Part shown: positions 9,335 to 23,477 of the stretch, one piece after another
Layout: each line of letters opens with the position of its first letter
How positions within the stretch are numbered: position 1 is the stretch's first letter
Assembly (NCBI GenBank): GCA_036399815.1
Contig: DASWMK010000265.1
Span: 1 to 41,106 of the forward strand
Direction: 5' to 3'
Length of the DNA: 41,106 nucleotides
Source: Acidimicrobiales bacterium
GTDB lineage: Bacteria; Actinomycetota; Acidimicrobiia; Acidimicrobiales; DASWMK01
The notes under the pieces: generated by a model
The model's database searches: none
Seen by the model: only the letters and a program-made list of their open reading frames with translations
What the model was told of the DNA's origin: nothing
Translations under genes and position numbers: made by a program

Positions 9335-10497
9335 CAGCGGTTCCTCTCTCGGCGCAGGTCGAAGGCGATCTTCACGGCGCCCCGGCGGCCGGCCTCCGCG
9401 GCGTGGGCCAGGGCCTCCTCGTAGCGGTCGAGCGGGTAGGTGGCCGACACCAGCCTGCCCAGCCGGGCCGCCCGCACCAGCTCGAAGGCGAGGTCGAACG
9501 TGCGCCGCCCGCCCTGCTCGGTGCCGTAGGCGTACGCGCCCCGCAGCTCGATCTCCCGCTGCCAGAGGGGCGTGAGGTCGACCGACACCTCGCCGGGCAT
9601 GCCGGCCAGCACCACCCGGCCCCGGGGGCGGGTGACGGCCAGCGAGTCGGCCACGCTGCCGGCGCTGCCCACGCAGTCGACGACGGCGTCGGCCCCGCCG
9701 GCCAGGCGGCCGTCGACGACGAGCGTGCCGGTCGCCCGGCGGACGCCCCTCGCCACCTCGCCGGGGGCGACCACCACGTCGGCGCCGAGGTCGAGGGCGA
9801 GCGCCCGCTGCTCGGGGTGCTTGGCCACGGCGAGGAGGGTGGCCGGCGGCCGGAAGCGGCGGAGGGCGGCGACGGCGCAGAGGCCGATCGTCCCCGCGCC
9901 GAGCACGACCACGACGCCGGCGGCCTCGGACACGGCCAGCGCGGCGTGGACGGCGCAGGCGGCCGGCTCCACCATCACCGCGGCCTCGTCGGCCAGGTCG
10001 TCGGGGACGGGGTGGACCTGGCTGCCGTGGGCGACCAGCTCCCGGCCCCAGCCGCCGCCGGTGTCCGCGCAGAACCCGGTCTGGAGGCCGGGCCTCAGGT
10101 GGCCGTGGGCGATGCGCTCGCAGTTGCCGAGCCGGCCGGCGGCGCAGGCCGGGCAGGGCGGGTCGACGCCGCGGGCGGCGCAGCCGAGCACCGGCTCGAT
10201 CACCACCCGGCCGCCGTCCTCCAGGTCGCCGACCACCTCGTGGCCGGGCACGAACGGGAAGCTGACGATGGGCTCGAACCAGCGCGAGCTGACGGCGTCG
10301 ATCGTGGCCAGGTCGCTGCCGCAGATGCCGGCCAGCCGGGGCCGCACCCGCACCCAGCCCGGGCCGGGCAGGTCGGGCGGGTCGACGTCGTCGAGGGACA
10401 GCGGCCCGACCCTCGCGCCCCGGCCCGGCGCCAGGCGGCCGGCGACCCTGGCGGCGGCGAAGCGGGGGAGCGACCGCTCGAAGACCAGCGCCCTCAC
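9334..10497 (-). CDS. Zinc-dependent medium-chain alcohol dehydrogenase
   Basis: 387 residues. An MDR-family NAD(P)-dependent oxidoreductase. It shows the catalytic zinc site (CGSDLAT, then PGHEVVGD), a cysteine-rich lobe (CAARGVDPPCPACAAGRLGNC) matching the structural zinc site, and a Rossmann glycine motif VVLGAGTIGLCAV. The likely substrate is an alcohol or aldehyde made by the reductase encoded just before it. The GTG at 10497 lies 4 nt after the stop of the reductase/HAD gene, and the TGA overlaps the ATG of the LarA-like gene. The N terminus has an unusual 45-residue lead-in before the first zinc motif. Confidence 0.9.
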   Translation of the reverse strand: MRALVFERSLPRFAAARVAGRLAPGRGARVGPLSLDDVDPPDLPGPGWVRVRPRLAGICGSDLATIDAVSSRWFEPIVSFPFVPGHEVVGDLEDGGRVVIEPVLGCAARGVDPPCPACAAGRLGNCERIAHGHLRPGLQTGFCADTGGGWGRELVAHGSQVHPVPDDLADEAAVMVEPAACAVHAALAVSEAAGVVVVLGAGTIGLCAVAALRRFRPPATLLAVAKHPEQRALALDLGADVVVAPGEVARGVRRATGTLVVDGRLAGGADAVVDCVGSAGSVADSLAVTRPRGRVVLAGMPGEVSVDLTPLWQREIELRGAYAYGTEQGGRRTFDLAFELVRAARLGRLVSATYPLDRYEEALAHAAEAGRRGAVKIAFDLRRERNR

Positions 10498-12850: not shown

Positions 12851-12987
12851 TGGGCACGCGAGAACGGGCGCTCGACGCCGCGCTCGTGTCGTTCGCCAGC
12901 CGGGCGCTCGGCGCTGCGCCTGTCTATCGCTTTCGCTTCGGCGGTGGAGGAGGTCCAGGGTCAACGGAAAGCTCCGGGAATACTTGA
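12850..12987 (+). pseudogene. 5' remnant of interrupted tetR
   Basis: The original tetR start: ATG then GTRERALDAALVSFASR, identical to the N-terminal helix of the intact copy at 14566-15210. At 12905 the sequence departs into the insertion and the frame ends in TGA at 12985-12987 after 28 unrelated codons. A 45-residue peptide could still be made from the old promoter but has no complete DNA-binding domain. Confidence 0.85.
12854..12904. repeat. 51-bp direct repeat, left copy
   Basis: Identical over 51 bp to 14615-14665. This copy is joined to the original upstream side of tetR (promoter and ATG). It marks the left end of the 1.7-kb insertion and could be an attachment site or a long target duplication. 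Confidence 0.95.
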
Positions 12988-14489
12988 TCGGACGGAACCC
13001 ACGAGGACGCGCTAGGGAGCTTACTTTTATCGGTTTCTACGAGTGACCGGTAGAACTCTCCATTCGCTGCATAGGTAGTCGCCCTGAGAGCCGCTCGCTG
13101 AGCTGCAGTGACGCTCTCAGAAGGATCAACGTCGGCGACTGCCATATCGGTTAGCTCATCGTAAAGCGCCCATCGCTCCTTGCCATCACGAACCTCGTAG
13201 TAGAGGTGGACTCGGTTAGGATCGCTCCCGGGAGGCGGCGGCTTAGGGTCCGACGCAAGCTCGACGCGTCGACGCCAGCGATGGAAGGTACTTATCCAAT
13301 TTGGCTGCGATTGATCGTTAACGAAGGACTCGAAGCGCTTACTCCAACGACCTCGCCGGCGTAGACCGCTCTCGCCTGCCCACAGGAATGCGGTCCTCGG
13401 GTAGCGGTAGAGCACCGTCGGCGCCGAAAGGCAATCGCCGATATGGCGCTCTAGGCCATTCAGCGCCTGCCAAGCGCGCTCCATGTCCTCGACCGTTGGG
13501 TTATGCCCAGCGTGGACAACCCGGTGACGCAGATTCACAAGCCGTTGAAAATATTCGCCGACTGGGCCCCGTCCGTTCGGGTCCCAGTCCCCCCCGAGTC
13601 GAGGAGGAAACGCGGATAGTACCTTCGCCTGGTGCCCCGTTCTACGACCGAGCAACTTCACCGCATCCAGCGGTGTCGTCCCTTCTTCCCAAGCCAGCTG
13701 CAGAAGAAGGCTATCTAAGAGGACTTCGCCTGTTGTGGCGAGAGTAACCACAGTAAGGCGGGCGCTGCCATCTAACCTCCGCTGGACGATGGCCTCCCGC
13801 CTCAGGTCACTAGCTAGAGCGTACGGGTGGCCGCGTGAGAACTGGTCCAGTGTAAGGCTCACACGCCGAAGCTGGGCATCGGACAACGGGGAAGCATCGA
13901 GGCCGAACAGTTGAGGGGCAGCCGAGCCGGTGACTCGGTGTGAAACCGGTTCGCCGAAATTCGGACGCGAACCATCGAGGTGTATGTGGCCGGGGAAAAC
14001 TGTTATGACTGGAGGAAGGTGAGAACGGGTGATGATTCTCACCGGTAGACGGGACACCTCGCCGACTGCCCGTTGTACTCCCGCAACCGCCTCAAGTGCT
14101 AGATCGAGCGCTATGTCAATAGCGCGTTCATCCTGAGGCACAGCAGTTGGGACGCAAGCTTCTATAATCGTCAGGCCCGCTTTGAGTGACGTCATATCCG
14201 GCGGAGGAAGGCGTTCGCCCCCCGGAGGAGTAGATGGCGACGCCGCTCCTCGGACGCAGGCGGCCGCATACGACGTGACGTCAACAATGTCGCTGACTAG
14301 AACGTTCGCAGTACGTTCGATCTGGTGAACCATTAGCGAACAGTGCAATCCAATCGGTGGGCGCGACTGTAGACGATCCATTTCCTCAGGACTGACGCCC
14401 CACTGTCCCACCCACCCGTGCGGTAGGCCGATGGGGTGTGGAAGAGGCAGGAAAAACCAAAGGCAAGGAACTCCGTCGCTCGCGTTCAC
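12924..14489 (-). CDS. Unknown protein with HEPN-like RxxxxH motif, insertion cargo
   Basis: 521 residues, no family recognised with certainty. The most telling segment is EYFQRLVNLRHRVVHAGHNPT: R321-HRVV-H326 fits the Rx4-6H active-site motif of HEPN domains, many of which are RNases in defence and toxin systems, and the flanking helices (QALNGLERHIGDCL follows) fit a HEPN bundle. The N-terminal 300 residues are mixed alpha/beta with no motif I can name; about 360-520 is charged and ends PPPPPKRKR. No signal peptide or membrane helix. The GTG at 14489 was chosen because GGGGAG lies about 8 nt upstream; the frame stays open to 14618. Codon use is more AT-rich than the neighbours, which fits transfer. 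A nuclease or abortive-infection role is inference from one motif. Confidence 0.75.
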   Translation of the reverse strand: MNASDGVPCLWFFLPLPHPIGLPHGWVGQWGVSPEEMDRLQSRPPIGLHCSLMVHQIERTANVLVSDIVDVTSYAAACVRGAASPSTPPGGERLPPPDMTSLKAGLTIIEACVPTAVPQDERAIDIALDLALEAVAGVQRAVGEVSRLPVRIITRSHLPPVITVFPGHIHLDGSRPNFGEPVSHRVTGSAAPQLFGLDASPLSDAQLRRVSLTLDQFSRGHPYALASDLRREAIVQRRLDGSARLTVVTLATTGEVLLDSLLLQLAWEEGTTPLDAVKLLGRRTGHQAKVLSAFPPRLGGDWDPNGRGPVGEYFQRLVNLRHRVVHAGHNPTVEDMERAWQALNGLERHIGDCLSAPTVLYRYPRTAFLWAGESGLRRRGRWSKRFESFVNDQSQPNWISTFHRWRRRVELASDPKPPPPGSDPNRVHLYYEVRDGKERWALYDELTDMAVADVDPSESVTAAQRAALRATTYAANGEFYRSLVETDKSKLPSASSWVPSDQVFPELSVDPGPPPPPKRKR

Positions 14490-14565
14490 GCTCCGCTCCC
14501 CGGCAGTCCGACGACGGGCTATGGTAAAGTAACCAGCCAGGTCCCGGCTACCTGCTGTGCTCTCG
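14490..14565. promoter_or_regulatory. Divergent intergenic region inside the insertion
   Basis: 76 bp between the HEPN-like gene (minus, from 14489) and the new start of tetR (plus, 14566). It contains TATGGT at 14520-14525 as a possible plus-strand -10. The palindrome found at the original tetR start is absent here, so tetR may have lost autoregulation. Confidence 0.4.
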
Positions 14566-15210
14566 ATGAGAAGCGTCTCCTCCCTGCCGCAGCGAACCGC
14601 ACACGCGCATCTCCGCACGCGAGAACGGGCGCTCGACGCCGCGCTCGTGTCGTTCGCCAGCCGGGGCTACGAGGCGACCTCGCTCGACGCCCTGGCCGCC
14701 GAGCTGGGCGTGCGCAAGCAGACGATCCTCTACTACTTCCCGTCCAAGGAGGCCCTGCTCGGCGCCGTGGTCGACCGGTCGGCCGGGGAGCTGTCGGCTG
14801 CCCTCGAGTCGGCGCTGGCGACGGCCGGCACCGGCTGGGCCAGGGTCGAGGCCGTCGTCCGCTCGGTGTTCCGGCTGGCGGCCCGCCGCCCCGAGCTGCT
14901 CGGCCTGCTGCGGGAGGTCAGCCGCCTCGGCCCGCCGGCCGCCACCCGCCTGGCCGACGCCCTCGAGCCCCTGGTCGACCGGGCCAGGTCGTTCCTCGAG
15001 GCGGAGATGGACGCCGGGACCATGCGCCGCCAGGACGCCCGCCTCCTGCTCCTGTCCGCCTACTCTGCGGTGATCGGCGTCGCCACCGAGGTCGAGGTGC
15101 TCCGCGCCCTGGGCGTCGAGCCGACGTCCCGCTCCCTGGTCCGCCGGCGGTCCGAGCTGCTGGCGTTCCTGCGGTCGGCGCTCGTGGCCGAGCCGGTGCC
15201 GTCGCGGTGA
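14566..15210 (+). CDS. TetR-family regulator, with insertion-supplied N terminus
   Basis: 214 residues. The DNA-binding helix-turn-helix is complete: RERALDAALVSFASRGYEATSLDALAAELGVRKQTILYYFPSKEALL. A ligand-binding helical domain follows. The first 16 residues (MRSVSSLPQRTAHAHL) come from the insertion, after which RTRERAL replaces the original GTRERAL in frame, so the repressor is probably still functional. An alternative GTG start lies at 14557. It probably controls the lipid operon through the palindrome at 12835-12850, now 1.7 kb away. The gene is convergent with the FG-GAP gene, 7 nt apart. Confidence 0.88.
   Translation: MRSVSSLPQRTAHAHLRTRERALDAALVSFASRGYEATSLDALAAELGVRKQTILYYFPSKEALLGAVVDRSAGELSAALESALATAGTGWARVEAVVRSVFRLAARRPELLGLLREVSRLGPPAATRLADALEPLVDRARSFLEAEMDAGTMRRQDARLLLLSAYSAVIGVATEVEVLRALGVEPTSRSLVRRRSELLAFLRSALVAEPVPSR
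14615..14665. repeat. 51-bp direct repeat, right copy
   Basis: Identical to 12854-12904. This copy is joined to the rest of tetR and is read as its codons from RTRERAL to ASRG. It forms the right end of the insertion. Confidence 0.95.
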
Positions 15211-15217
15211 AGGGCAG

Positions 15218-16828
15218 CTAGCCGAGGGCGTGGGCGAAGCGGTCGTCGGCCTCGTACCGGTCGAGGAACGTGCCGCCCTGCCAGATGCACTGGTCGCCGA
15301 CCGTCCCGAGGCCGCCCGCCGTCCCGTACAGCACGTGGAGGATGCCGGCCTGGGAGTGCGACCCCGTGGCGTCGGCGATCGTCTCGTAGGGGGCGCCGAT
15401 GGCGAGGTCGGCGTGGCCGTCGGCGGTGAAGTCCCTGGCCAGCACGGCCCACCCGAAGTGCTCCACGCCGGTCGCCACCTCGCAGACGCCGGCGGTGTCC
15501 TGGTGCCACAGCTGGTCGTCCGGCGCCGTCGACTGGAGGCCGGCCGGCGAGCCGTGCAGGACGGCGACGGCGCCCGTCTGGGCAACGCCGCCGACCGTCT
15601 CGTAGGGGATGCCGACGGCGAGGTCGTCGCGCCCGTCGCCGTCGAAGTCCCCGGCCGACACGGCGAACCCGAACCGGTCGCCGGCCTCGGGGATCCCCCG
15701 CACGCCGGCGCCGCCCTGGCCCCACACCTGGTCGTCCGGCGCCGTGGCCTGCAGGCCGGCGGCCGAGCCGTGGAGGACGGCGACGACGCCGCTGTCGGCG
15801 AGCCCGCTGCGGTCCTCCTGGGGGACGCCGACGGCGAGGTCGCCGAACCCGTCGCCGTCGAAGTCGCCGATCGCCAGCCGGTCCCCGAACTCGTCGCCCA
15901 CCTCGGCGCTGTCCCGCACGCCGGCGCTGTCCTGGTGCCACAGCTGGTCGGCGGGGGCCGAGCCCTGGAGGCCGCCCGAGGAGCCGTGGACCACGGCGAC
16001 GGCGCCGTCGTCGTCGACGGTGACGTCCTCCTCCGGCACGCCGACCGCGAGGTCGGCGAACCCGTCGCCGTCGAGGTCGCCGGCGGCCAGGGCCTCGCCG
16101 AACCGGTCGCCCACCTCCGCCGCGTCGTCGACCCTCGCCGTGTCCTGGGTGAGCAGCAGGTCGTCCGGCGCGTCCGCCTGCAGGCCGCCGGCCGACCCGT
16201 AGAGGACGGCGACGGCGCCCGCGACCACGACCGCCCCGACGTCGTCCGACGGGACCCCGACGGCCAGGTCCACGTACCCGTCGGCGTCGAAGTCGGCGGC
16301 GGCCAGGGCCGAGCCGAACCGGTCGGCCGAGTCGGCGGTGCCCCGCACGCCGGGCGTGTCCTGGGTGAGCGCCTGGTCGTCGGGCGCCGACGCCTGGAGG
16401 CCGTCCGGGCCGCCGTACAGCACGTGCACGGCGCCGGCGTCCACGGCCGCCCCGACGTCCTCGTCCGGGACGCCGACGGCGAGGTCGGCGTGGCCGTCGC
16501 CGTCGAAGTCGCCGCTCGCCAGCGGCTCGCCGAAGCCGTCGTCGGCCTCGCCGGCCTCGGCGAGCCCCTGGCGGCCCTGCGACCAGAACTGGTCCTCGAT
16601 GCTGCCGGGCGGGCCGTCGTCGAGGGCGCCGGGAGCGGCGTAGACGACCTGGACGGCGCCGGCGTCGTCCACGCCGTCGACGGTCTCGCCGGCCACGCCG
16701 ACGGCGAGGTCGGGCAGGCCGTCGCCGTTGAAGTCCCCCGGCGCGGCGGGTCCGCCGCCCGCCTCGGCCGGCCCGGCACCGGCCGCCGCGGCGAGCAGGG
16801 CGACGACGACGCCGACGGCCCTCACCAC
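15218..16828 (-). CDS. Secreted FG-GAP (integrin-alpha-like) repeat protein
   Basis: 536 residues. A signal peptide (VRAVGVVVALLAAAAGAGPAEA) is followed by about seven repeats of 60-70 residues. Each has a calcium-binding loop (DFNGDGLPDL, DFDGDGHADL, DFDADGYVDL, DLDGDGFADL, DFDGDGFGDL, DFDGDGRDDL, DFTADGHADL) followed by AVGVP or AIGAP, and a V(V/L)(Y/H)GS strand. This predicts an extracellular beta-propeller for adhesion or scaffolding; no catalytic residue is visible. The GTG at 16828 is preceded by TACAGT with 6-nt spacing, suggesting a leaderless mRNA. Confidence 0.9.
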   Translation of the reverse strand: MVRAVGVVVALLAAAAGAGPAEAGGGPAAPGDFNGDGLPDLAVGVAGETVDGVDDAGAVQVVYAAPGALDDGPPGSIEDQFWSQGRQGLAEAGEADDGFGEPLASGDFDGDGHADLAVGVPDEDVGAAVDAGAVHVLYGGPDGLQASAPDDQALTQDTPGVRGTADSADRFGSALAAADFDADGYVDLAVGVPSDDVGAVVVAGAVAVLYGSAGGLQADAPDDLLLTQDTARVDDAAEVGDRFGEALAAGDLDGDGFADLAVGVPEEDVTVDDDGAVAVVHGSSGGLQGSAPADQLWHQDSAGVRDSAEVGDEFGDRLAIGDFDGDGFGDLAVGVPQEDRSGLADSGVVAVLHGSAAGLQATAPDDQVWGQGGAGVRGIPEAGDRFGFAVSAGDFDGDGRDDLAVGIPYETVGGVAQTGAVAVLHGSPAGLQSTAPDDQLWHQDTAGVCEVATGVEHFGWAVLARDFTADGHADLAIGAPYETIADATGSHSQAGILHVLYGTAGGLGTVGDQCIWQGGTFLDRYEADDRFAHALG

Positions 16829-16850: not shown

Positions 16851-17240
16851 TCAGCGGCCCGCCGGCCCGGCCGCGGCGTGCTCGTCCCTCCGGCGCTCGG
16901 CCCGCACGGCGAGGCCCGCGTAGCCGGCGACGACGGCCGCGGCGGCGACCGCCCTGAGCGGAGCGGCCAGCGACTCGGGGTAGACGACGCCCTCGACGTA
17001 GCGGTCGACGAAGCCGCCGTCGTAGGCCCCGGCGTCGCCCAGCCGGCGCAGCAGCTTCTCGAGCGGGGTCAGCGGGTAGGTGAACCCGACCGTGAGGATG
17101 GCGACCGCGTAGACGACGGCCGGCACGTGCGCCCACACCAGGCGGGGCCACCGCCAGGCCAGCAGGCCGCCGAGCGCGACGAACAGGATGAAGCCGAGGT
17201 GGACGATCACGACGGCGTCGGCCAGCAGTCCGTACCCCAT
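16851..17240 (-). CDS. DUF2784 family membrane protein
   Basis: 129 residues, three or four hydrophobic helices. The sequence MGYGLLADAVVIVHLGFILFV, then WPRLVWAHVPAVVYAV, then the signature YPLTPLEKLLRR and a C-terminal GGFVDRYVEGVVYP match the DUF2784 family of small inner-membrane proteins of unknown function. The C-terminal tail is charged. The ATG at 17240 begins the family-typical N terminus. Confidence 0.85.
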   Translation of the reverse strand: MGYGLLADAVVIVHLGFILFVALGGLLAWRWPRLVWAHVPAVVYAVAILTVGFTYPLTPLEKLLRRLGDAGAYDGGFVDRYVEGVVYPESLAAPLRAVAAAAVVAGYAGLAVRAERRRDEHAAAGPAGR

Positions 17241-18018: not shown

Positions 18019-19362
18019 GTGACCTTCGCGCAATACGTTGAACAGCGAGCCTTGTCGCATCAGCGATTGTTTGAGCTCCAACCCTTCACTTCGTCGCTGA
18101 CTGCACTCGTGGAAGGTGCCGGGGACTGGGTCACCAAGGCATATCGGCCGGCATTGGAAAAGGTCAACCAGCTATGGCCGGTTCGCGTCGTCTACGCAGA
18201 CGCAACTGGTGGAACCCGGCGGAGGCCGGGGTGGGCTAGTAGTGAGACACTACATTCGTGGGAGGTGTATCTCGACAAGGACGAGCGGAGGGGTCGCGAG
18301 ATTTACGACAGCCTGCGGCCCGACGTAGTGTTCGTTGCGACGCCTTCGGACAAGCACGTCGAGGTCACCTTAGCCTGGCTTGGTAAGACGCCGCTCGTTT
18401 TTGTTGAGAAGCCCGTTGCAGAACGCGTGTCAGAAATCGATCGACTCCTCCACGAGTGGGCAGACTATACAGCTACCGGTAATGGTACTCCTCTAACGTC
18501 AGTATTCGGCGTGGACCATTACCAACTGTATAGTGTCCCACTATTTCATCATCGTGAGGAAGTAGATGACCATGTCTCGGGAGTCCTCACAACGGCTCAC
18601 TTCGCCATGACAGAAAGTCATCCGGTCGAGGCGCGACGGGTTACCTCACTCGCTGCTGGTATGACGGTTGACATGTGGCCTCACCTTCCGGCGCTTATGG
18701 CGTTGTTCGGCGCACTAACCTCGATCGACGAGATCGAGCTGGTGGACGCCGCCATCTATGATCCTCCCATAGCTTGCGACGTCGATCCTGATACGGGCGA
18801 GTGGAAGAACGTCATACCTCTTAGCCCTCGCTTCACCGCGGAAACGTATAGCGAATCATCGTGCGCGTTCAGTCCTGCGGGTCAGGCCATGCCGATTAAG
18901 GTCGAGGCGACAGTTGGCAAGGGAGTCGACACGCCCTCCAAGTTCTTTGAGGTTGCAACGAATCATGGACATGCCGTCCGCGTGGACTTCGGCGCCTCTG
19001 AGGCGAATGGGGCGTACCCGTCAGGAACGGTGATGCTGCTCTGTACAAAAGGGGACAGCAGCTGCGACCACGGCCATCGGCCCTTTGACGACCCTCATGG
19101 TGTGTATCTTAGCGTCTCGTGCGTCGTCAACCACGACGGGTCACTGGCCGCTTGGCCGATCGCGCGCGACCGCTACGTGGACTTGGTAACGGACTTATGT
19201 GCCGGGACCACGGGCGCGCTCGCAAACATCCTCACAGTGCAGGAGGCGCGAGACATAGTGCGGGCCATTGAGCGCTTACGGTCACTTATGCCTGAACAAT
19301 CGGAGCTTCGCAAGTACGACCTCGCAGGTGCGGACGTGCTACGCACCACTGGGGACGAGTGA
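18019..19362 (+). CDS. Gfo/Idh/MocA-family oxidoreductase-like protein
   Basis: 447 residues, first gene of a three-gene operon. The Rossmann domain (about 28-165) shows EGAGDWVTKAYRPAL as a glycine loop, PDVVFVATPSDKHVEV, and the hallmark VFVEKPVA (E130-K131-P132). The C-terminal domain has GMTVDMWPHLPAL (D218, H222), the family's catalytic Asp/His pattern. Such enzymes oxidise or reduce sugars and related metabolites with NAD(P). The extra N-terminal 25 residues and the CTKGDSSCDHGHRPFDDPHG segment (about 335-356) are unusual. The GTG at 18019 has AGGA 8 nt upstream. More AT at third positions than its neighbours suggests transfer. Co-transcription with a kinase and receiver suggests a sensory role rather than plain metabolism (inference). 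Confidence 0.82.
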   Translation: MTFAQYVEQRALSHQRLFELQPFTSSLTALVEGAGDWVTKAYRPALEKVNQLWPVRVVYADATGGTRRRPGWASSETLHSWEVYLDKDERRGREIYDSLRPDVVFVATPSDKHVEVTLAWLGKTPLVFVEKPVAERVSEIDRLLHEWADYTATGNGTPLTSVFGVDHYQLYSVPLFHHREEVDDHVSGVLTTAHFAMTESHPVEARRVTSLAAGMTVDMWPHLPALMALFGALTSIDEIELVDAAIYDPPIACDVDPDTGEWKNVIPLSPRFTAETYSESSCAFSPAGQAMPIKVEATVGKGVDTPSKFFEVATNHGHAVRVDFGASEANGAYPSGTVMLLCTKGDSSCDHGHRPFDDPHGVYLSVSCVVNHDGSLAAWPIARDRYVDLVTDLCAGTTGALANILTVQEARDIVRAIERLRSLMPEQSELRKYDLAGADVLRTTGDE

Positions 19363-20738
19363 CTGTGTCGGCGGCCCTTCCGTCGGCTCAGAACATGGGA
19401 CACGCCCGGCTACACCGCCGTACAGCCGTTCTCGCGCGAGCGAGAGAACCATGGTATGGGCTGGCTGACTCGTTGAGCGTCCTCAACAAACGCGCGCTTC
19501 GAGAACTGACGAGCGCTACTCCTAATTGGGACATGGTGTACAGCCACGCTGCCGAAACGGTTCGAGCCTCGTCTCGTCGCGCCGACATCGTCGCTATCCG
19601 GTTGCGAAAATCGCCCAACGATCGGCTTGAATACAAGTTCGTAGTGCCAAAGAGTGCAGGGCGGTCGCTGACGCGACTGGAAATTTATGATGAGAGCACC
19701 GGGACCACGCACCCGGCGCACAAATCGCTCCTTCGCAATGCAACCGTATATGAACGCTACGACACTTCCACCGAAGTAACACTGGAGGCAGTGCGTTCGA
19801 TTATGGCCGCGCCGATAGCAACTGACCAGGATCCTCCTTACGGGGTGCTAGAGGTCCATTCGGTCCATCCGTCCGGGCTGGATCGGTTCTGCCGCACGGC
19901 AGCGAAGCGAGTAGCGGAGCAACTAGGAATGTTCTCATTCCTCGCCTACCGCGTCGAAGAGTTACAGACTACAAATGCGGCACTCGAAAAAACGAAGCGC
20001 GAACAGGCGAACGCCGTTGAGTCGCTAAAGCATCAACTCGAGAGCCCGCTCGTTGCCGCAAGGAATTGGGTTGAAGATACGATCGATGGTATGGCGCATT
20101 CTCTAACGAGCGACGACCGCCACAGACTGCGGGTCGCGCTCAGCCTAACGAACAAGGCGCTGTGGGTGGCACGGAGCCTCGAGATCTTCGCTAAACTTGA
20201 GAGAAATGAATCGCTAGGCGAGGCCGCATGGGAGAAGGTCTCGGCCGACAGGTTTTGGTCGCGGATTGAGGGCCTTGCACGCGACCAGGATATTACGCAA
20301 AGCAAGGCGGGTAGGGTGCGCGTCTTAGTCGATGCAACGACGAAGAGATTCTTGCCAAACACGTTCTACATCGATTTTCGCTACCTCGACCAAGCAGTCA
20401 TGGCGGTTCTTGACAACGCCTGTAAATATAGCTTTCCGGACACTACGGTGCGGGTGCACGTCGAACGGCAAACGCGCAAGCGCCCGACGTTCAGCGTTGT
20501 CGTCTCTAATATCGGCATCCGACTTGAACAACGGGAGATTCCGTACTGCACTATGCGTGGGTGGCGAGGCAACGAGAGCTACTGGCATCCCGGTACGGGG
20601 ATCGGGCTGTGGTTAGCGTCTAACGCCATGCAGGCACTATCGGGCCGTCTCGTCATATCGCCCACGAGTGCCGACGACGTTACGCGCGTCGAGCTTATGG
20701 TCGGGCAGCCAACACAAATTCCCCGGGAGGCACCGTGA
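19359..20738 (+). CDS. GAF-domain sensor histidine kinase, soluble
   Basis: 459 residues, overlapping the oxidoreductase gene by 4 nt. No membrane helix. A GAF-like domain (about 55-195) with SIMAAPIATDQDPPYGVLEVHS is followed by a coiled coil (about 198-225), a DHp-type helix with ESLKHQLESPL (H225 as likely phosphoacceptor) and an HATPase_c domain with the N box LDNACKYS (N353) and G box PGTGIGLWLA (411-420). The phosphoacceptor box is divergent (HQLESP rather than HELRTP). It probably senses a small molecule or a partner protein and phosphorylates the receiver encoded next. Confidence 0.85.
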   Translation: MTVSAALPSAQNMGHARLHRRTAVLARAREPWYGLADSLSVLNKRALRELTSATPNWDMVYSHAAETVRASSRRADIVAIRLRKSPNDRLEYKFVVPKSAGRSLTRLEIYDESTGTTHPAHKSLLRNATVYERYDTSTEVTLEAVRSIMAAPIATDQDPPYGVLEVHSVHPSGLDRFCRTAAKRVAEQLGMFSFLAYRVEELQTTNAALEKTKREQANAVESLKHQLESPLVAARNWVEDTIDGMAHSLTSDDRHRLRVALSLTNKALWVARSLEIFAKLERNESLGEAAWEKVSADRFWSRIEGLARDQDITQSKAGRVRVLVDATTKRFLPNTFYIDFRYLDQAVMAVLDNACKYSFPDTTVRVHVERQTRKRPTFSVVVSNIGIRLEQREIPYCTMRGWRGNESYWHPGTGIGLWLASNAMQALSGRLVISPTSADDVTRVELMVGQPTQIPREAP

Positions 20739-21217
20739 CCCAGGCAGCCCAACGGCGCGGCAGGATAGCGTTTCTCGAGGATGACGACAACCACTATCGG
20801 GTCCTTTGTCGGAGCCTGCGTCGTCAGATTCCGGAACTCGAGTGCGTGCAGTACTCGAGCGAACGGGAATTCATGTCAGCGCTTGTTGAGATGCGGCGCG
20901 ACCCACCGGACTTATTCGTCGTCGACATGATGGTCGTGGCGGATCGCCCCCAGCGCAACTCAACCACTTCCGTGATCGCGCAGTCGGACTTCTTCCAGGC
21001 GGGAGCTCGTTGTATCAACGTGGTCCAGAACGACGTCGTTCTCGCGACAGTGCCGGTCGTAGTTTATTCTATTCTAAGTCGGCCGGAGCTCGTGGACGAT
21101 CTAAGCAAGCTCACGCGACCGGTCCATCTAATAAACAAGACGGAGCCGTTTCGTGAAGTTGCGACGACGATTCGCACAGAGTTTCTTGACGCGACTGGTC
21201 GGAAACGGCGCGCCTGA
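20735..21217 (+). CDS. Single-domain response regulator
   Basis: 160 residues. Receiver features: acidic cluster EDDD (15-18), phosphoacceptor D64 in LFVVDMM, conserved S112 in VVVYSIL and K135 in LINKTEPF. No DNA-binding output domain is attached, so it should act through protein contacts, perhaps with one of the island's oxidoreductase-like proteins. A roughly 25-residue insertion after D64 (DRPQRNSTTSVIAQSDFFQA) is atypical. The GTG at 20735 overlaps the kinase stop by 4 nt; the stop lies in a hairpin shared with the convergent gene. Confidence 0.85.
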   Translation: MTQAAQRRGRIAFLEDDDNHYRVLCRSLRRQIPELECVQYSSEREFMSALVEMRRDPPDLFVVDMMVVADRPQRNSTTSVIAQSDFFQAGARCINVVQNDVVLATVPVVVYSILSRPELVDDLSKLTRPVHLINKTEPFREVATTIRTEFLDATGRKRRA

Positions 21218-21229
21218 AATCCTCAGGCG
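21211..21229. terminator. Symmetric bidirectional hairpin between convergent genes
   Basis: CGCCTGA-AATCC-TCAGGCG: perfect 7-bp arms with a 5-nt loop. The TGA of the receiver gene is the end of the left arm and the TGA of the minus-strand gene is the end of the right arm, so it can serve both directions. Confidence 0.7.
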
Positions 21230-22308
21230 GGTATGAGCATCGCTTCGCGTTGCAGTAGACTCGCGGTTTTGTCGAGCACCGGCCACCCGAAGGAGCGCAG
21301 GACGTGCGCGATCACCGCGAGTCGCGCTCGGTCGCTGCTATATGGGTTGGATCGTAACGTCAATGTGATCGTGTTCTGAACCGCGTGCAACAATCGGTGC
21401 AAGTCGCCGCTGACCAGTGCAGAGAAATAGTGCTCGTTCCAGCGCGAACCCCGCTCGACCGTATCCGGGTCGTCGCGGAGCAGCTGGCGGAACCCTGACC
21501 AGACGAGGGCGGGGATACGAACGCCGCTATTGGTTTCCGGGATATAGTAGTGCGCAAAGCCGTCGGGCACCCAGTACGGCCAATCGTGTTCTTCGGCTGT
21601 ATCGACCATCCAGCTTCCCCATCCGGGTGCTGGTCTCGGTGCATTGCGCTGCGCGATCCCAACGGTCTGTGCAAGCAGCGTGCGCTTAGCGGAATCGTGC
21701 CGCAAGCGCCCGATCTCGGCGTCGATGAAGTGCGTAACCGGGTCGAGCTCTGGTATGGGCTGTCCAGCGGAGACGAGAGCGTCTGACGTCAACTCGATGA
21801 AGGTCGGAATGTGGGCCGTAGTCGCAGTATCGAGAAGCTGCCTCGGGGGGTGTGTCGCTCGGCCGATGATAAGTGCACTCGTCCTAAGGAAGAAGTGTCG
21901 TATGGTCGAGACGGCGTCGGGAGCGTCGGGGGGTATGTAGACGAGGTCCGCCTTTAGGTTGTCATAGATGCGCCGCTCAACGTTGTCGCATAGGTTGATG
22001 ATCGTGCACCGGGCGCGTGTGGTCTCGGAGCATGTCTCGCTGCTACTCTTTGTCAGCCAAATAACATCATTTGAGGTGAGAGCTTGCGCGAGAGTGGAGA
22101 GAACGGGCCGATGACGCCGGCGTCGTGGTTCGTGGTGGGCGACGACGGTCAGCGGAAGGCCGTGCACGCGTCGCCTTAGGCCGTCGAGGAGAACTTCGGG
22201 AGCAAGACGCGGCTGATCGAGGAGTTCTCGGATATCAGGGTCGCGCGTAGTGGCGACCGGTCCGCGCGTGCGGGCGCGTCGGCCCGTCGAGTGAGCGTCT
22301 TGTGTCAC
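21223..22308 (-). CDS. Degenerate Gfo/Idh-like protein, partner of the island operon
   Basis: 361 residues. The N-terminal half can be aligned by eye with the oxidoreductase at 18019-19362: HRPVLSTLAQAL against YRPALEKVNQLW, ERRIYDNLKADLVYIPPDAPDAV against GREIYDSLRPDVVFVATPSDKHV. The glycine loop is lost and the EKP motif is replaced by GRATHPP, so it should not be an active dehydrogenase of that type. The C-terminal half (GSWMVDTAEEHDWPYWVPDGFAHYYIPET, then helices to the end) is unrecognised. The start is uncertain: GTG 22308 has AGGAG 5 nt upstream, while the frame reaches an ATG at 22395. It may be a regulatory or binding partner of the active homologue (inference). Confidence 0.72.
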   Translation of the reverse strand: MTQDAHSTGRRARTRGPVATTRDPDIRELLDQPRLAPEVLLDGLRRRVHGLPLTVVAHHEPRRRRHRPVLSTLAQALTSNDVIWLTKSSSETCSETTRARCTIINLCDNVERRIYDNLKADLVYIPPDAPDAVSTIRHFFLRTSALIIGRATHPPRQLLDTATTAHIPTFIELTSDALVSAGQPIPELDPVTHFIDAEIGRLRHDSAKRTLLAQTVGIAQRNAPRPAPGWGSWMVDTAEEHDWPYWVPDGFAHYYIPETNSGVRIPALVWSGFRQLLRDDPDTVERGSRWNEHYFSALVSGDLHRLLHAVQNTITLTLRSNPYSSDRARLAVIAHVLRSFGWPVLDKTASLLQREAMLIPA

Positions 22309-22425: not shown

Positions 22426-23001
22426 CTACGCGCCGACGTGGACGGTGCGGTCGTCTTCGAAGGGCAGGTGCAGGGTGAGGCGGAGGGTGGCGCCGGCCGA
22501 GGCCGCCAGGCGGGCCAGCGGGGCGGGGTCGTCGACCACGGCGGCCAGGGCGGCGTCGAGCAGGGGCCCGTCGGCGGCCGGGACGGCGGCGCGCACCTCG
22601 GCGGGCGGGCCGACCAGCACCAGGCCGGGCCCGTCGTCCGGCGTCCCGGCGACCCGGACGGCGGTCGCCTGCACGAGCGCGGCGCCGGCCGGGGCCGGGT
22701 CGAGGTCGCCGGCCAGGGCGCCCACCGCCGACGTCACCGCCTCGGGGACGGCGCCGGCGAGAGCGACGAGGAAGGCCGGGTCGAGCGTCCCGCCGGCCGC
22801 CGGCACGCCTCCGACCACCACCTCCAGGCGGACCTGGGCCTCCTCGGCCAGCTTGGCCGCCATCTTGTCCCGCTTGCCCTGGATGGCGTCCCGCATGAGC
22901 TGCATGCCGGGCCGGGTGGCGGTGTCCGGGTCGTCGAAGACCTGGAGGGCCCGCTCCAGGCCGGCCAGCTCCTCGCGCTGGCGGGCCTCCCGTCCGCTCA
23001 C
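22426..23001 (-). CDS. Hypothetical protein paired with the DUF6932 gene
   Basis: 191 residues. The N-terminal 65 residues are helical and charged (REARQREELAGLERAL and QGKRDKMAAKLAEEAQ), followed by an Ala/Gly/Val-rich alpha/beta part. No family recognised, no signal peptide. The GTG at 23001 overlaps the stop of the DUF6932 gene by 4 nt, so the two are probably made together. Confidence 0.65.
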   Translation of the reverse strand: MSGREARQREELAGLERALQVFDDPDTATRPGMQLMRDAIQGKRDKMAAKLAEEAQVRLEVVVGGVPAAGGTLDPAFLVALAGAVPEAVTSAVGALAGDLDPAPAGAALVQATAVRVAGTPDDGPGLVLVGPPAEVRAAVPAADGPLLDAALAAVVDDPAPLARLAASAGATLRLTLHLPFEDDRTVHVGA

Positions 23002-23477
23002 GCGGCGACCTCGACGAAGCCCTTCTCGGCGCCGTCGCGGGTGTGGCCGAAGTAGCTCTCCCACCGGCCGGCCACCACCAGCGAGGCCTGGTACCCGAGG
23101 TCGCCCTCCGGGTAGCGCAGCAGCGGGTTCGAGTCGCAGGCCCAGAACTGCTCGGTGTACGTGCCCTCGATCATCGACGCCACCAGCAGCCGGCGGTGGC
23201 GGGGGAGGTCGTCGAAGGCCGGGCCGTCGATCACGGTGACGAGGTCGAGGTCGGCCGGGTCGAGCTTGTCGGTGGTGAAGCTGCCGTCGAGCCACTGGGC
23301 CCGCACGGGCACGAGCTCGTCGAGCGCCTCCCGCAGGTCCAGCCAGTACGAGAAGATCGCCGCCCGGGTGGAGGAGCCCTCGAACGCCTCGACGAGCGAC
23401 GCCCGCACGTCGTCGACGGTGGCCTCGTGGCGCCCGGCCGGGAGCAGGCCGCCGTCGCCGAAGGCGGGGATCGGCAT
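22998..23477 (-). CDS. DUF6932 family protein (minimal nucleotidyltransferase-like)
   Basis: 159 residues. FGDGGLLPAGRHEAT at the N terminus, WLDGSFTTDKLDPADLDLVTVID in the middle, and a late YFGHTRDGAEKGFVEV segment fit the DUF6932 pattern. The GS...DxD arrangement is that of minimal nucleotidyltransferases, seen in some toxin pairs; the activity is unknown. Its ATG overlaps the stop of the D-Ala-D-Ala ligase gene by 1 nt and its own stop overlaps the next gene, giving a three-gene minus operon. Confidence 0.75.
   Translation of the reverse strand: MPIPAFGDGGLLPAGRHEATVDDVRASLVEAFEGSSTRAAIFSYWLDLREALDELVPVRAQWLDGSFTTDKLDPADLDLVTVIDGPAFDDLPRHRRLLVASMIEGTYTEQFWACDSNPLLRYPEGDLGYQASLVVAGRWESYFGHTRDGAEKGFVEVAA

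Follow-up and report, generated by a model that had tools for sequence, protein, structure and literature searches.

A foreign four-gene cassette combining a soluble histidine kinase, a putative stand-alone receiver, a Gfo/Idh-type oxidoreductase and an orphan protein in an Acidimicrobiales bacterium

Contig DASWMK010000265.1 of the Acidimicrobiales bacterium assembly GCA_036399815.1, analysed here over a stretch of 41,106 nucleotides (nt; the window), carries a cassette of four genes that is both real and unusual, comprising a kinase, a receiver, an oxidoreductase and one orphan gene. Genes 1 and 2, and genes 2 and 3, each overlap by 4 nt (GTGA; positions 19359–19362 and 20735–20738), an arrangement that would favour production of the three proteins in fixed proportion. 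Genes 3 and 4 are convergent, their stop codons lying 5 nt apart. These four open reading frames (ORFs), with their short overlaps and the head-on meeting of the last two, had been described in an earlier reading of the DNA letters without database searches (the sequence-only reading), and are confirmed here (Table 1).

Table 1. Features of the cassette, with the evidence on which each assignment is based.
Feature	Position	Strand	Length	Assignment	Evidence
Gene 1	18019..19362	+	447 aa	Divergent Gfo/Idh/MocA-type NAD(P)-dependent oxidoreductase	Pfam, hhalign, residue positions
Gene 2	19359..20738	+	459 aa	Soluble histidine kinase	Pfam HATPase_c, phmmer to solved kinases, hydropathy
Gene 3	20735..21217	+	160 aa	Putative stand-alone receiver, without output domain	Hallmark residues, weak hhalign
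Gene 4	21223..22308	-	361 aa	Orphan protein	ORF, start, codon composition
Inverted repeat CGCCTGA-(5)-TCAGGCG, perfect 7 bp	21211-21217 / 21223-21229				Sequence, RNA fold

The longest stop-free runs (480, 447 and 361 codons) are all longer than any found among 200 shuffles, where the maximum was 326, so that their coding character is not due to chance, and all four reading frames are intact. The inverted repeat (21211–21229) includes the stop codons of both convergent genes; its RNA fold has an energy of -16.4 kcal/mol (z -2.4), and it is a possible two-way terminator, lacking a run of T. No promoter above chance level was found. Kyte-Doolittle hydropathy reveals no membrane segment in any of the four proteins, and Pfam scans find no DNA-binding domain in them, in keeping with the earlier statement that the cassette has no DNA-binding output.

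In composition the cassette stands apart from its surroundings. Its GC content is 0.57–0.63, compared with 0.73–0.79 over most of the window (mean about 0.75), and the GC content at third codon positions (GC3) is 0.643, 0.646, 0.671 and 0.702 in genes 1–4, against 0.96–0.99 in the flanking TetR, FG-GAP, DUF2784, DUF6932, Ddl and MurF genes, which make up most of the flanking genes that are called with confidence. An ORF at 17188 has a GC3 of 0.845, below that of these genes, and two more ORFs are atypical in GC3, one at 10494 that is probably in the wrong frame and one at 12924 that also looks foreign. The cassette lies within a single contig with host-like genes on either side, so a binning error is unlikely. 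The window contains no integrase, transposase or other mobility gene that we could find and no tRNA, and the two edge intergenic stretches share no direct repeat of 8 or longer. None of the relatives available for an empty-site comparison belongs to the same family, and the genes on either side of the cassette are not conserved in them. The contrast in GC and GC3 bears out the proposal that the cassette is foreign; its description as self-contained is supported too, and its best reading is that of a horizontally acquired accessory block. Adjoining it is a DUF6932 gene (22998-23465, minus strand), host-like with a GC3 of 0.994 and unmatched in any of 39 relatives from its order.

Gene 1 had been taken by eye for a Gfo/Idh-like protein, and this assignment holds. 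The Pfam family PF01408 matches residues 93–146 above its gathering score (E=1.3e-9), and hhalign aligns residues 21–223 with a family profile compiled from 14 Gfo/Idh sequences of other loci at 96.8% probability. The protein has a coenzyme-loop-like motif at GAG33, the EKP motif at residues 130–132 and a DxxxH motif, D218 and H222 of which align opposite the LGDxGAH of the Gfo/Idh family. Since EKP and DxxxH are kept and the profile alignment is that of the family, the enzyme looks catalytically intact. The characterised families nearest to it are ordinary sugar dehydrogenases, inositol 2-dehydrogenase among them. Gene 1 resembles IolG, the inositol 2-dehydrogenase, and levoglucosan dehydrogenase in its Rossmann half, EKP and DxxxH, but its scores come nowhere near the cut-off of any named NCBIfam subfamily. 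Plasmid and IMG/VR searches gave no recognisable relative for its C-terminal half, and no sugar pathway genes lie near the cassette. Single-sequence structure prediction of gene 1 gave a predicted local distance difference test (pLDDT) score of 33. A relationship to glucose-6-phosphate dehydrogenase, suggested by DHY and GK motifs seen by eye, was dismissed because the DxxxH spacing and all profile matches fit Gfo/Idh, and no glucose-6-phosphate dehydrogenase model matches.

The soluble histidine kinase encoded by gene 2 is identified by a Pfam HATPase_c match (E=6.9e-8) and by the characteristic boxes, with a phospho-acceptor at H225 (HQLESPL), an N-box at 352 (DNACKYS) and a G-box at 412 (GTGIGL). 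Alignment by phmmer with solved kinases places H225 on the catalytic histidine, and the maximum Kyte-Doolittle value of 1.1 agrees with a soluble protein. The N-terminal ~200 residues form a putative sensor region, which had been labelled a GAF domain. Residues 1–214, however, match no GAF model in Pfam even at E<=10 and no PDB entry, so that part of the description is a judgement by eye, whereas the soluble kinase itself stands.

Gene 3 carries the hallmarks expected of a receiver, namely the acidic residues E15, D16 and D17, the phospho-acceptor D64, S112 and K135. The profile signal is weaker: hhalign aligns residues 8–67, half a domain, with a receiver profile at P=0.0019 and a probability of just 14%, and no Pfam domain, Response_reg included, is found in the protein. 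Its matches in other genomes are weak, and those inspected are ordinary receivers. The residues suggest that gene 3 is a divergent receiver in which a long stretch separates strands three and four. The proposed stand-alone receiver is thus supported by its hallmark residues and by the lack of an output domain, but not by Pfam, and little by profile comparison.

Gene 4 is a real ORF with no recognised family. It begins with GTG preceded by AGGAG and has the codon composition of genes 1–3, and neither Pfam, NCBIfam, PHROGs, PADLOC nor the PDB sequences provide a match. A low-confidence single-sequence model (pLDDT 37) shows strand-helix repeats, with an alpha/beta first half and helical last 80 residues; a PDB fold search with this model returned nothing at E<=0.001. 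The sequence-only reading saw in gene 4 a degenerate oxidoreductase that resembles gene 1 but has lost its EKP motif, and in the two together a pair of Rossmann proteins, one active and one not. The resemblance amounts to one 19-residue stretch, REIYDSLRPDVVFVATP / RRIYDNLKADLVYIPPD. In Smith-Waterman comparisons of the whole proteins the score is equalled or exceeded by 174 of 2000 shuffles, which is chance level, and hhalign gives 0.1% for gene 4 against the Gfo/Idh profile and 3.2%, over 19 residues, for the two single sequences. For a 70-residue segment picked after the match had been seen, the value is about 0.7%, which is suggestive only. We therefore reject as unproven the view of gene 4 as a degenerate copy of gene 1, and the proposed pair of an active and an inactive Rossmann protein lacks support with it.

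The orphan nature of gene 4 bears on an account in which the set is a chance assembly, genes 1–3 being one operon and gene 4 a passenger that came from the same donor but is unrelated to them, with some or all of the genes decaying. The opposite orientation of gene 4, the lack of any detectable family in common with gene 1 and the failure to find a second example of the set all agree with this. On the other hand, no frame is broken, gene 4 shares the codon composition of its neighbours, and genes 3 and 4 end 5 nt apart within a common hairpin. We consider a chance assembly unlikely.

Recurrence of the set was sought with coverage that differs by gene. Gene 1 was compared with 397 phylum-wide genomes, 148 genomes of the order (partly overlapping with these) and 188 genomes of another class of the phylum, as well as with plasmids, phages, IMG/VR and, by exact peptide patterns, GTDB; one of the GTDB pattern scans used only an altered 240-residue piece of the protein. 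Where a limit of E<=1e-6 applied, it found nothing apart from itself, and its matches in the 397 phylum genomes are weak, generic or spurious. Gene 2 matched one ordinary kinase in the phylum set (E<=1e-12) and only generic kinases in plasmids, and was also compared with IMG/VR. For gene 3 the phylum set, plasmids and IMG/VR were searched, and for gene 4 its own genome, plasmids, phages and IMG/VR, the 397-genome set and GTDB not being included. Beyond generic family members, genes 1, 3 and 4 have no relatives in the collections searched for each.

Individual candidates did not survive inspection. The gene 1 match L002, in G078, contains an internal stop and reads as unrelated sequence; the kinase match (L028) is a membrane kinase of ordinary type, accompanied by a DNA-binding regulator; and two receivers (L024, L026) are ordinary. 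Gfo/Idh genes on Embleya and Paraburkholderia plasmids lie in ordinary sugar-type neighbourhoods, three GTDB loci (L037-L039) are generic Gfo/Idh genes matched over the EKP region only, and two IMG/VR loci (L061, L062) are chance matches within a phage structural-type protein. Scans in which artificially altered copies of the query were used to choose motifs yielded no family relative. Whole-genome, plasmid, phage, IMG/VR and GTDB searches, by which remote relatives are poorly reached, revealed no second four-gene set. The co-occurrence proposed as a check on the cassette, the absence of which had been named as a refutation, was in this way sought and not found in any collection, a result that counts only in part. 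Because the pattern scans reach close relatives only and no positive control exists for the family, it means that the set is rare or fast-evolving, not that it is unique.

Two neighbouring genes deserve mention in their own right. At 15218-16828 (minus strand), beside a TetR regulator, lies a gene for an integrin-like protein with at least seven FG-GAP repeats. The foreign-looking ORF at 12924-14618 (minus strand; 564 aa, GC3 0.60), 3.4 kb from the cassette, encodes a protein with an RHRVVH sequence that resembles a HEPN motif by eye, and that belongs to no Pfam, PADLOC or PHROG family. Its relatives, at 24-29% identity (best E=5e-20), are found on actinobacterial plasmids of Gordonia, Rhodococcus, Corynebacterium, Kocuria and Arthrobacter; the Rhodococcus relative is beside an ADP-ribosylglycohydrolase gene and near HNH endonuclease genes.

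We propose, with a probability of roughly 0.35, that in this cassette the receiver controls the co-translated oxidoreductase in a phosphorylation-dependent manner, within a horizontally acquired cytosolic His-Asp relay. The gene 2 kinase would sense an internal signal and autophosphorylate on H225, from which the phosphate would move to D64 of gene 3. Since it has no DNA-binding part, the receiver would act through protein contact, most likely with gene 1, and its binding would switch an NAD(P)-linked reaction whose substrate is a small metabolite, probably sugar-like; gene 4 may be an accessory protein. This proposal draws on the overlaps of genes 1–3, the uniform codon composition, residues H225, D64, S112 and K135, the EKP and DxxxH motifs, and the absence of membrane segments and DNA-binding domains described above. 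Four considerations weigh against it: operon coupling does not prove contact between the receiver and gene 1, the sensor region of gene 2 matches nothing in Pfam or the PDB, the profile similarity of gene 3 to receivers is weak, and the set has no relatives that could supply conservation evidence for joint function. Of the earlier picture of a self-contained foreign relay regulating a Rossmann pair, we retain a non-DNA-binding relay whose genes are translationally coupled to that of an oxidoreductase, but not the pair.

Stand-alone receivers often have distant partners that are usually not encoded adjacent to them, which makes their targets hard to find. The kinase and receiver could accordingly control a host protein elsewhere, the Gfo/Idh enzyme being a metabolic gene of the same operon that, for example, makes or removes the signal of the kinase. 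Such an arrangement would also suit the ordinary sugar dehydrogenases that are the closest characterised matches to gene 1, but it accounts less readily for the tight translational coupling of genes 1–3 and for their having been transferred together as one foreign block, and we regard it as somewhat unlikely.

Comparisons with known systems place the proposed receiver-controlled oxidoreductase in context. Like the cassette with its putative receiver, cytosolic two-component systems whose response regulators consist of a single domain pair a soluble kinase with a stand-alone receiver in adjacent genes; the cassette differs in its translational coupling to an oxidoreductase, in a receiver that Pfam does not score and in an unmatched sensor region. 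HEF_HK and Response_reg_2 (PF19191/PF19192) describe a soluble kinase-like protein beside a receiver without other domains (PMC8011034). A soluble kinase adjoining a putative receiver-only protein is found in the cassette too, but PF19191 and PF19192 match neither gene 2 nor gene 3, and the cassette contains no restriction-modification genes.

The nearest working analogy is Detocs, a three-gene two-component defence family (PMC11249213), with which the cassette has in common a three-gene block, a two-component relay and, here, a candidate enzymatic effector. The kinase and receiver of such a system are represented by genes 2 and 3, the latter with the reservation imposed by its weak profile match. 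The likeness is one of working principle, not family membership, as Pfam and PADLOC scans of the cassette reveal neither a PNP domain nor any other known effector domain and there is no evidence of a defence context. By analogy, the relay might trigger an effector on infection, either the oxidoreductase or gene 4, and this effector might deplete NAD(P) or some other metabolite. A foreign, self-contained, cytosolic cassette without DNA-binding output would fit such a role, for which Detocs is a precedent, as would the second foreign gene with its HEPN-like motif; the genes between that ORF and the cassette, however, are ordinary host genes. Some PADLOC candidate models do match, the kinase with PDC-M43B (E=1.1e-10) and, weakly, the receiver with PDC-M60B (0.013) and PglZ (9e-4). 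PDC-M60B has matches in 120 of 130 genomes and was dismissed as a defence link because it behaves as a generic receiver model; PDC-M43B at E<=1e-20 has no match in 199 genomes nor in 14 controls and is uninformative either way. PDC-M43B and PglZ may be generic models as well. The cassette contains no recognisable defence gene and does not recur in the plasmids or phages searched. The suggestion of a defence module has thus gained no positive evidence, and we consider it decidedly unlikely.

It is similarly improbable, in our estimate, that the cassette represents an undescribed module, spreading horizontally and possibly responding to stress or phage, whose cytosolic His-Asp relay gates the NAD(P)-linked oxidoreductase directly and which includes an orphan partner. 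With one example and no relatives, the cassette is a lead, not a system. Its interest is that here the receiver gene is translationally coupled to that of an enzyme, which gives a stand-alone receiver a concrete candidate target. If the relay does gate the oxidoreductase, two-component signalling would be connected directly to NAD(P)-dependent metabolism.

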